53,969 bases of DNA, taken from contig JANXXO010000085.1 in the NCBI GenBank assembly GCA_025350565.1, forward strand, positions 1-53,969, written 5' to 3'. The notes beneath the pieces were generated by a model that saw nothing but the letters and a program-made list of their open reading frames with translations, ran no database searches and was not told where the DNA came from. Shown one piece after another: positions 50,709 to 53,969 of this stretch (the stretch's first letter is position 1; the number at the start of each line of letters is the position of its first letter). Both the position numbers and the translations under genes were made by a program. The stretch is from Acidimicrobiaceae bacterium (GTDB taxonomy: Bacteria > Actinomycetota > Acidimicrobiia > Acidimicrobiales > RAAP-2).

Positions 50709-51260
50709 TCAGCGACTAATGGCCCTTCGGCGTAGTTCGTCCTCCACCGCGGCCGGATCAAGACCGCGACTTCGCAGTAACACCAGCGTGTGAAACCAAA
50801 GGTCGGCCGCTTCGCTCACGACCCGCTCGTCCTCTTCGCTGAGGGCGGCGACCACAAGTTCCACGGCTTCTTCGCCCACCTTTCGCGCAATCCTTCCCGG
50901 CCCGTCGCGCAGTAGTGCCACCACGTAGGAATCCTCGGACTGCGCACGCTCACGTTGCAGGACCGTTCGCCACAACCAAGGAGTAAAACAGGACGTACTC
51001 CCGTCGTGACAGGTAGGGCCGTCGGCCGTGGCGCGGACCAAGACGGCGTCTGCATCACAGTCCAAGACGACCTCGACCACGTGCAGAACGTTGCCCGAGG
51101 TCTCCCCCTTCTGCCAAAGCCGTTGGCGCGACCGGGAGAAGAAGTGCACGAGTCCGCTACTACGCGTGAGCGCCAGGGCTTCTTCGTCCATCCAACCCAA
51201 CATCAAGACACGCCCGGTGGCGTCATCTTGGACGATGGCGGCCTTTAACTCTTCGCTCAT
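50709..51260 (-). CDS. hisIE: HisIE: phosphoribosyl-AMP cyclohydrolase / phosphoribosyl-ATP pyrophosphatase
   Basis: A fused histidine-biosynthesis enzyme of 183 residues. The N-terminal HisI half has [26 protein letters not shown] and the metal-binding Asp/Cys segment [22 protein letters not shown]. The C-terminal HisE half (from about 100) has the [14 protein letters not shown] helix and [14 protein letters not shown]. Steps 2 and 3 of the pathway. The ATG overlaps the hisF stop (ATGA). Last gene of the his group. Confidence 0.95.
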
Positions 51261-52009
51261 ACTGATTCCTTCATTGGTCGGAGTACAACGCCCAAACGTT
51301 CAATCTCGCGACGAAGTCCCGCCAGACCCGAGGGATTCTCGTGGACAATCGAGGCCACCAGCGCCGCGTCCGTCACGCGTAGGGCGTCCACGACGTGCTG
51401 GGCGCAGCCGGCTCCCCCCGACGCGATGACGGGAATCTGCACCGCGCGACGAACGGCGACCGTCAAATCAAGGTCGAAACCGTTTCGCTGTCCGTCGCGC
51501 GCAATCGACGTCAGCAGGATCTCGCCGGCGCCGCGTTCGGCGGCCTCGACCGCCCAGGGAATGGTCGCGGTCGCGGTGGCCACGCTCCCTCCGTGCGAAT
51601 GCACGACACCGTCGCCGGCGTCAATGGCGACGACGACAGCCTGGCTCCCGTAACGATGAGCGATAGCGGCAATCAGGGTGGGCTGGGCCAGCGCCGCGGA
51701 GTTGAGTGAGACGCGGTCGGCCCCGGCATCAATGAGGCGGGCCGCATCCTCGACGCTGCGGATACCTCCGCCGACCGTGAACGGGATTGCCACGACCTCG
51801 GCCACGGCGCGAACGACGTCGACCAAGGTCGTTTGGTCGTCGGGCGTCGCTTTGATATCGAGAAACACCAGCTCGTCGGCTCCGCCGTCGCTGTAAAACT
51901 TGGCCAGTTCGAGGGGATCACCTTGGTCGCGCAGGTCGACGAAACTGGTGCCTTTGACCACTCGCCCGTAGGCGACGTCCAGACAGGGAATTAGACGCGC
52001 GTAAGGCAT
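51257..52009 (-). CDS. hisF: imidazole glycerol-phosphate synthase, cyclase subunit HisF
   Basis: 250 residues from the ATG at 52009, the usual length. Catalytic Asp11 is in [16 protein letters not shown] and the second Asp in VAIDAGDG (near 130). TIM-barrel phosphate loops GGGIRS and ASGGAG are present. With HisH it makes imidazole glycerol phosphate and AICAR. Its start lies 19 bp inside the end of hisH, so the two subunits are tightly coupled. hisA, often found between or beside these genes, is absent here. Confidence 0.96.
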
Positions 52010-52533
52010 CGTTCGAGAAACCGCAGTCCGGCGGTCCCGCTCTTCTCGGGGTGGAACTGCACGCCAATAAAGGAGTCGCGTTGCACCACCGCGGCAACCC
52101 CGTCGGAGGTCGCCACGACGTCGGTTGACTCGGCGGCAAAGGAGTGGGCGAAGTAATAGGTCTCCCCCCACGGTTGCACGTCGGCCCATCCCAAACGCGG
52201 GACCCGTTCACTGGTCAGGCGCCGCACTCGACCGTTGAGCAGCCCCAAACCTTCGACGCCGCCGTCCTCGTCACTCGAGGTGAACGAGAGTTGTAGGCCG
52301 AGACAGATGCCGAGCATGGGCTGTCCCTGCGCGAATCGTTGGCGCAGCGCCGTCGCGGCGCCCGTCTCGTTGAGGTGCGTCATCGCGCTTCGGGCGGATC
52401 CGACGCCCGGCAAGACCAGTAGTTCGCTCGAGCAAATACGGTCGGGATCGCTCGTGACCTCGCTCGTCAACCCAACGTGTTCGAGCGCCGCGCGAACCGA
52501 GTGGGTGTTGCCGGCGCCGTAGTCGACCACCAC
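51991..52533 (-). CDS. hisH: imidazole glycerol-phosphate synthase, glutaminase subunit HisH
   Basis: 180 residues, slightly short. Class I glutamine amidotransferase: the nucleophile Cys is in MLGICLGLQ and the His/Glu pair in GVQFHPEKSG. It starts at a GTG at 52533 (VVDYGAGN, the usual first strand), 8 bp after the hisB stop. Supplies ammonia to HisF. Confidence 0.95.
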   Translation of the reverse strand: MVVDYGAGNTHSVRAALEHVGLTSEVTSDPDRICSSELLVLPGVGSARSAMTHLNETGAATALRQRFAQGQPMLGICLGLQLSFTSSDEDGGVEGLGLLNGRVRRLTSERVPRLGWADVQPWGETYYFAHSFAAESTDVVATSDGVAAVVQRDSFIGVQFHPEKSGTAGLRFLERCLTRV

Positions 52534-52541
52534 GACGGCGT

Positions 52542-53399
52542 TCAGAGCGATCCTTTGGTCGAGCGGATCAGAGATCCGTCGGGCGTGAAGGCCTGGGCCA
52601 AGGCGCGTCCCACGGCCTTGAAGGACGCTTCCGCCACGTGATGCGCGTTCTCACCCGTGGCCGTCACGTGCAAGGTGATGCGGGCGGTCTGCGCCAAGGA
52701 CTCGAAGGCGTGGACCGCCATTCCGGGGTCGGGGGTGATGGTGATGTTGGCCGTCGCACGACCCGAGAGGTCAACAACGGCGTGGGCTAATGCCTCATCC
52801 ATCGGTACGCGCGCTTCGCCGTAACGCGTGAGTCCTCGTCGGTCGCCGAGAGCCTCGTCAAGTGCTTCGCCAAACGTCCGCATCATGTCCTCGACCATGT
52901 GGTGATCGCCCGTTTCGAGGTCGCCTACCCCTTCGAGTCGAAGGTCCATTCCGCCGTGGAAGGCCAGTTGCTGCAACATATGATCGTAGAAACCGAGTCC
53001 GGTGTTCACGTAGACCCGGCCTTCACCGGGTACGCGCAGTCGTACGGACAACACCGTCTCGGCCGTAGCCCGGCGGTGACGCAGCATCGGTGGCGAGGGC
53101 GGCTCCCCGTTGACCACGCACCGCACGGCGTCGAGCAGCACGTCGTCGTCGAGTTCGTCCTTGACGCTGATACGAAGTCCGCCCGCGTAAGCGCGCACGA
53201 CGACGCCCCACGCCATCAATTGTTCCACCAGTGCTTGAGGATCGTCCATGGGAATGAAGAGGAAGTTGGTGTACGACGTAAGGGGCACGAGACCGAGTTC
53301 ACGGAGGCAACGTGCCAATCGTTCGCGTTCGGCGACCTGGGCGCTCACGTCGAGGGGAACCGCCAGTGCGGCCAGGGCCAGCGAGGCCGAGAGTGATCG
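52542..53399 (-). CDS. hisB: HisC-HisB fusion: histidinol-phosphate aminotransferase C-terminus joined to imidazoleglycerol-phosphate dehydratase (5' end missing)
   Basis: One continuous frame. Its last ~180 residues are a full HisB dehydratase: GFYDHMLQQLAFHGG, the metal motif GDHHMVEDM, PMDEALAHAVVDLSGR, NAHHVAEASFKA and the final STKG. Before it, joined by NGEPPSPPM with no stop, lie about 100 residues of a HisC C-terminal domain: LVPLTSYTNFLFIP and GLRISVKDELDDDVLLDAV. HisB makes the substrate of HisC, so these are consecutive steps. The 5' part, with the PLP lysine, is missing: HisC-like sequence stops at about 53399 where the AT-rich tail begins. An internal ATG at 53087 could make HisB alone. 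Confidence 0.88.
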   Translation of the reverse strand, partial: RSLSASLALAALAVPLDVSAQVAERERLARCLRELGLVPLTSYTNFLFIPMDDPQALVEQLMAWGVVVRAYAGGLRISVKDELDDDVLLDAVRCVVNGEPPSPPMLRHRRATAETVLSVRLRVPGEGRVYVNTGLGFYDHMLQQLAFHGGMDLRLEGVGDLETGDHHMVEDMMRTFGEALDEALGDRRGLTRYGEARVPMDEALAHAVVDLSGRATANITITPDPGMAVHAFESLAQTARITLHVTATGENAHHVAEASFKAVGRALAQAFTPDGSLIRSTKGSL

Positions 53400-53402
53400 C
53401 TT
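53397..53402. other. abrupt junction to AT-rich foreign sequence
   Basis: GC-rich coding on the minus strand (hisC part) ends here, and AT-rich coding on the plus strand begins, with both reading frames cut at the junction. A GATC lies at 53395-53398. See the chimera finding. Confidence 0.8.
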
Positions 53403-53969
53403 CTTTCAAACTACGAAACTTCAGAAATATATTTAGTAAACAGTGACCGTATAATGGTTACACCGTCGCGCAATGCGAAGGATATAAAAATAAAACAAAA
53501 AGTAGACACCTTGCCTGTAAGAGAGTGTTTGCAAAACAACAAGGAGACTATTTCTGAGTATGATGACTATCGTGGCGTTCGGGTATACGGTGCATCAATG
53601 TGTCTTGAAAGTCAGGGGCTTGTTCTGTTGGTAGAGGTAAACAAGGATGAAATACTATCGCCGATCTCTTCTCTACTGCAAATAATATTTACAGGCGGAG
53701 TAGTCTTGTTCCTTTTTGGTATTTTAATGATTGTATCCTTTTTGAGGATTCCACTTAGAAATATAAATGAGGTTGTATCTGCTCTTGAGCGTGTGATGAA
53801 AGGCGATTTTACTGCTAAAGCGAGAGTGCTCGCAAAAGATGAAACTGGGCGACTTGCTGTGATGTTTAATACTATGGTTGAATCAATCCGCAATAGTCAA
53901 AAGGAATTGCAAATGTCTAAATTAGAAACAGAAGAAAAAGCACTTATCTTGGAAAAGGATATTATTGAG
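53400..53969 (+). CDS. Cache-HAMP sensor protein, internal fragment
   Basis: An open plus-strand frame runs from the junction to the window end (190 codons, both ends missing). The first ~65 residues look like the end of a periplasmic Cache sensor domain (EIYLVNSDRIMVTPSR, later YDDYRGVRVYGA and LVLLVEVNKDEI). A membrane helix follows (IIFTGGVVLFLFGILMIVSFL), then a HAMP domain (RNINEVVSALERVMKGDFTAKA, DETGRLAVMFNTMVES) and a coiled-coil entering a kinase, cyclase or chemotaxis output that lies beyond the window. Codon use is AT-rich and unlike everything before 53400. Confidence 0.75.

Follow-up and report, generated by a model that had tools for sequence, protein, structure and literature searches.

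The window, that is, the whole stretch of 53,969 nucleotides analysed here, carries a run of histidine biosynthesis genes (Table 1). A single frame, 52542–53396 (-), encodes the C-terminal ~92 residues of HisC, a linker of 16 residues, and a complete HisB. The open reading frame itself spans 52542–53348 (-), the frame stays open to 53399, and no stop codon is found between the HisC and HisB parts. The C-terminal part of the aminotransferase corresponds to positions 268–349 of the NCBIfam model PRK03321 (E 1.8e-10), whereas the HisB part covers the entire Pfam profile PF00475 (positions 1–144 of 144, E 1.6e-46), with a score of 158 bits against a cut-off of 27; in the NCBIfam search of the window, HisB and the final ~80 positions of HisC were matched. 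This HisB is of a short form, with ~9 residues fewer than PF00475. The preliminary description of this DNA, in which the C terminus of HisC runs through a linker into a full HisB without a stop, is thus borne out by the reading frame and the profile matches. The coordinates it assigned, 52542–53399, are correct to within 3 bases, since the homologous sequence ends at 53396.

Table 1. Positions of the his genes, the parts of the fused frame and the terminal segment of the window.
Feature	Position	Strand	Remarks
HisC domain, C-terminal ~92 residues	53121..53396	(-)	Remainder on contig C63 of the same genome
16-codon linker CVVNGEPPSPPMLRHR	53073..53120	(-)	Length identical in all 51 relatives
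Complete HisB (imidazoleglycerol-phosphate dehydratase) domain and stop codon	52542..53072	(-)	Short form
hisH of 180 aa, which follows hisCB in the operon	51991..52533	(-)	
hisF	51257..52009	(-)	
hisIE (hisI and hisE fused), 183 aa, final gene of the operon	50709..51260	(-)	From sequence; counterpart in relatives
Low-GC tail, read as foreign, with part of a HAMP-domain protein	53397..53969		Read as an assembly chimera; outside the his locus

The GC content is 64% at 52542–53399 and 38% at 53400–53969, and this drop falls inside the HisC part, in agreement with the earlier suggestion that the N-terminal portion of HisC had been lost at a break in composition. The missing portion, which was to be sought on another contig, was indeed found at the extreme end of contig C63, where a search of the window's own genome located the same 37 residues. 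Positions 53286–53396 of the window are identical to the final 111 bases of C63 save for one mismatch at 53385, and the two sequences diverge from 53397 onward. Contig C63 carries a divergent hisA, hisG, hisD, and the N-terminal 258 residues of HisC; joined with the window, it yields one HisC–HisB frame of ~506 residues, from MNPVALESYRWPPSN to STKGSL, with no stop. The tail of the window (53397–53969) encodes part of a HAMP-domain protein, as identified with Pfam, and no close copy of it was found elsewhere in the genome. We read the end of the window, from 53397, as an assembly chimera contributed by foreign sequence.

Conservation of the fusion in the genus

A search for the same two-domain protein in related genomes had been proposed, and the complete fusion is present in relatives belonging to the genus of the window, a group of uncultured actinobacteria from soil. 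The genus yields 51 distinct full-length copies, every one 500–509 residues long with a linker of 16 residues. The pooled dN/dS ratio over 329 pairs is 0.13 for HisC, 0.36 for the linker, and 0.05 for HisB, and the linker is, judging from these ratios, under purifying selection. In the linker region no start codon is common to more than 20 of the 51 relatives. Taken together, the ratios and the lack of a widely shared start codon indicate that the linker is translated and that a separate start of HisB is not conserved.

In a family-wide search HisB was found in 86 of the 99 genomes of the genus, mostly within a frame of more than 500 residues, and was not found in the remaining 13. In G009, G011, G014, and G031 the copy is either broken or truncated by the end of a contig. 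Most matches in the genome collection are named as Acidimicrobiaceae or other actinobacterial metagenome assemblies, many of them from palsa, bog, or fen. Six of the 13 genomes without HisB were searched for HisD; five do not have it, and one (G454) does. These five genomes (G018, G110, G423, G452, and G455) are 94–97% complete. Because both HisB and HisD are absent, some species of the genus probably make no histidine and would be auxotrophs, the pathway having apparently been lost inside the genus.

An explanation of the fusion as an artefact of assembly or base calling would require a missed stop codon, an indel in the linker, or a chimeric join of hisC to hisB. A chimera is indeed present at the end of the window, from 53397, and the genome of the window is a fragmented assembly of 98 contigs, yet that chimera lies in the HisC part, 277 bases away from the linker, and an identical frame and linker length recur in 51 distinct sequences from many independent assemblies. 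A base error or an indel in the linker is ruled out by these 51 relatives, and an artefact of any of these kinds is hardly credible. Of the observations that had been named in advance as speaking against the fusion, a stop codon or an indel, neither was encountered within the genus, where the length of the linker is constant; separate hisC and hisB genes occur, among the genomes compared, only outside it.

The two halves of the fused protein

The HisC half is complete in the copy of a relative (L090), which matches TIGR01141 with E 8e-57 over positions 9–347 of 349. Its score of 192.7 bits is below the NCBIfam curated cut-off of 276.55, but in 4 of 14 control genomes no match exceeds that cut-off either, so the cut-off alone does not exclude HisC. 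Alignment with HisC of known structure reveals that the segment with the PLP lysine (TFSKAYGLAG), DEAY, PNNPTG, and the segment with the substrate arginine (GLRISV) are all kept. Among 102 fused open reading frames, DEAY is present in every one and the PLP-lysine motif in 100. Among proteins of known structure, the closest in sequence to the HisC half is Rv3772, whose entry names it a putative phenylalanine aminotransferase, and the genome holds at least three more aminotransferases with weak matches to TIGR01141.

The HisB half is likewise matched by NCBIfam with E 4e-59, but with a score under the curated cut-off. HHMVED, HHVAEA, and STKG are found in HisB of the window; in the 102 fused frames HHxxED, PMDE/D, and S[TS]KG are present throughout, and the second motif, HHxxE, in 97. 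An N-terminal phosphatase domain was not found, with NF003937 matching only at its positions 170–355 of 355. The form of HisB with 182 residues is limited, among the genomes compared, to the genus, part of the family f103, and the family f67; the short HisB of another genus of the family, g188, is a different form of 176 residues. A HisB of 176 residues, the size of the enzyme from Pyrococcus furiosus, is available in the Protein Data Bank (5dnl) and is presumably that very enzyme. The roles of the metal ligands and of the C loop of HisB, as well as its assembly into a 24-mer, have been described, with the P. furiosus enzyme being active and losing its activity without the C loop (PMC4509728); a short length is therefore compatible with activity in HisB.

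A model of the fusion predicted with AlphaFold2 from 34 sequences has a mean pLDDT of 84.5. A Foldseek search with it returned plant, Thermotoga, and Corynebacterium HisC for the first half and HisB of Mycobacterium (M. tuberculosis) and Acanthamoeba for the second. Because the active-site motifs of both enzymes are kept, the product is most likely a bifunctional HisC–HisB enzyme. Its N-terminal half would be a PLP-dependent histidinol-phosphate aminotransferase (HisC, step 7 of the pathway) and its C-terminal half a Mn-dependent imidazoleglycerol-phosphate dehydratase (HisB, step 6), both presumably active, with neither cleaved off nor translated separately. HisB would convert imidazoleglycerol phosphate to imidazole-acetol phosphate, which the tethered HisC would convert to histidinol phosphate. 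The recognition, from the window alone, that consecutive steps are joined holds for the full-length fusion in relatives as well.

HisB might also, or even mainly, be made as a separate protein, either by cleavage or because translation starts again inside the linker. An ATG is present nine codons before HisB in 18 of the 51 relatives, and the linker in the window also contains an ATG; however, no ATG is found at that place in the other 33, the linker region of 10 has no start codon whatever, and the linker appears to be under purifying selection, all of which makes separate production of HisB highly unlikely. A different question is whether the fusion serves co-expression, dosage, or stability alone, without any channelling, which would compete with channelling and not with bifunctionality. 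We consider the chances of this to be even. In their catalytic motifs the two halves do not differ from ordinary HisC and HisB, and hisI and hisE are also fused in the same operon; against this, two successive steps are united in a fusion with more than one origin, a pattern that would suit an advantage of proximity without demonstrating it.

HisC is a dimer in known structures. Less firmly than the bifunctional enzyme itself, a 24-mer core of HisB with HisC on the outside may be envisaged, which would provide a short path for the intermediate. From geometry we infer, as a tentative and rather doubtful extension, a cage of 24 HisB domains and 12 HisC dimers with direct passage of imidazole-acetol phosphate, a module that would have arisen at least three times and would spread between classes with transfer of the operon.

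Distribution and origin of the fused operon

The his operon of the genus has the order hisG-hisD-hisCB-hisH-hisF-hisIE, with hisA divergent. A divergent hisA and a hisF placed straight after hisH are common to the genus and the families f103, f67, f114, and f131, whereas in the operon proper to the family of the genus hisA lies between hisH and hisF. Elsewhere in the family and order, the genera examined have separate hisC and hisB, with a stop, and the two genes adjoin each other except in g188. HisD in the genus is short (~352 residues; L032, 8943–10049 of C63, as well as G204, G310, G328, and G454), positions 255–292 of PF00815 being missing and the flanks abutting with little or no gap; in G328 a different contig carries a second HisD, of full length.

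The same fusion is widespread in a second class of the phylum, which we suspect to be Thermoleophilia. A phylum-wide sample revealed it in the families f103, f67, and f114, and a class-wide sample around the genome G621 in many genera of f103, f114, and f131. In the family f83, by comparison, it was found in the phylum-wide sample in a single genome, G537, with stops in its relatives. HisC and HisB are also in one frame in two Bacteroidales assemblies (L097, 5848–7506, and L098, 5893–7521). The HisB half of L097 matches the HisNB model from position 165 onward, with no phosphatase domain left, and this match suggests that the hisN part was lost between hisC and hisB. These fusions elsewhere in the phylum and in Bacteroidales rule out one unique to the genome of the window or to its genus. 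Stand-alone copies of HisC in f103 genomes (L170, L183, L184, and L185), near which no other his gene was found, branch inside the fused HisC clade and may have arisen from the fused gene by fission or duplication.

The HisB tree nests the genus among the short-HisB fusions of f103 (forks 100/93 and 97/83, starred) and sets it well apart from the unfused HisB of the family to which it belongs (98/96, starred). In the HisC, HisF, and HisH trees it is found beside f103 and f67, away from its own family. Since the layout of the operon and the four gene trees all tie the genus to the second class, the whole his operon probably entered the ancestor of the genus by horizontal transfer, the source of which would be that other class or something near it. 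The trees disagree on nesting, with HisB placing the genus inside the second class and HisC, HisF, and HisH beside it, and for that reason the donor and direction given here are tentative. A single origin for the Actinomycetota fusions, that of G537 excepted, is compatible with the HisB and HisC trees. The G537 and Bacteroidales fusions look like separate events, and independent fusion elsewhere in the phylum probably took place once.

Alternatively, the fused operon could have been inherited vertically from the ancestor of the phylum and lost in other genera of the order. The position of the genus beside, not inside, the second class in the HisC, HisF, and HisH trees agrees with such a history, but the HisB tree nests the genus within that class, and parallel loss and replacement would be required in the remaining genera of the family and in the sampled rest of the order; we regard vertical inheritance as unlikely. 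Read-through within the native operon of the family is ruled out by the layout of the operon and by the four trees pointing to the second class. The short HisB of g188 (genomes G394 and G395) was considered as an intermediate and rejected, being unfused, on a very long branch, and part of an operon of different order. In these genomes (L138 and L139) both the short HisB and HisH are strongly diverged, with very long branches, and the gene order is hisC-hisH-hisA-hisB-hisF-hisIE. A bifunctional HisC–HisB enzyme of ~506 residues, encoded in a probably horizontally acquired operon, is the best explanation of the data as a whole, with a probability of about 0.88.

Relation to other his fusions

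With two his enzymes in one conserved frame, hisCB is a his gene fusion. Like the hisCB product, HisNB of enterobacteria has a C-terminal imidazoleglycerol-phosphate dehydratase preceded by another his enzyme and is encoded in a compact his operon, but its N-terminal HisN catalyzes step 8, whereas the partner in hisCB is the aminotransferase of step 7, consecutive to HisB. HisIE, located in the same operon, also joins consecutive steps and arose several times, although with other enzymes, of steps 2 and 3. HIS4, HIS7, and a multi-domain protein of Acanthamoeba are multifunctional his proteins as well; they are eukaryotic, and the domains listed for them in the consulted passages (PMC6029752) include no aminotransferase. 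The separate HisC and HisB of other Acidimicrobiales share with hisCB adjacent genes, their order, and the domains; they differ in the stop in between, in a HisB of 195 rather than 182 residues, and in hisA located inside the operon.

A survey of his fusions from 2007 puts the number of fused his genes at eight out of ten, naming hisA, B, D, E, F, H, I, and N but not hisC (PMC1963479). A review from 2023 lists seven, again without hisC (PMC10138114), and the consulted part of a paper on Bacteroidota reports HisNB and HisIE and no HisC fusion (PMC8305728). We found no description of a HisC–HisB fusion in the searchable literature, which covers few subscription journals, and the 25 best NCBIfam matches (release of June 2026) include no model for a bifunctional HisC–HisB enzyme. 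Since no such model was found and both halves score under the curated cut-offs, the fusion has likely been missed in annotation. The preliminary description, which had called the arrangement unusual, did not foresee that the fusion is widespread in the second class and probably arrived with the whole his operon. The HisC–HisB fusion is real, widespread, and, as far as searchable papers show, undescribed, with each half an ordinary member of its family.

The role of gene fusion in the evolution of pathways is classically illustrated by histidine synthesis, and the HisC–HisB fusion adds hisC to the genes involved. It joins consecutive steps, has more than one origin, and, according to the layout and trees, probably moved with its operon between classes. 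It provides a natural system for asking whether a small phosphate intermediate becomes channelled when its enzymes are tethered.
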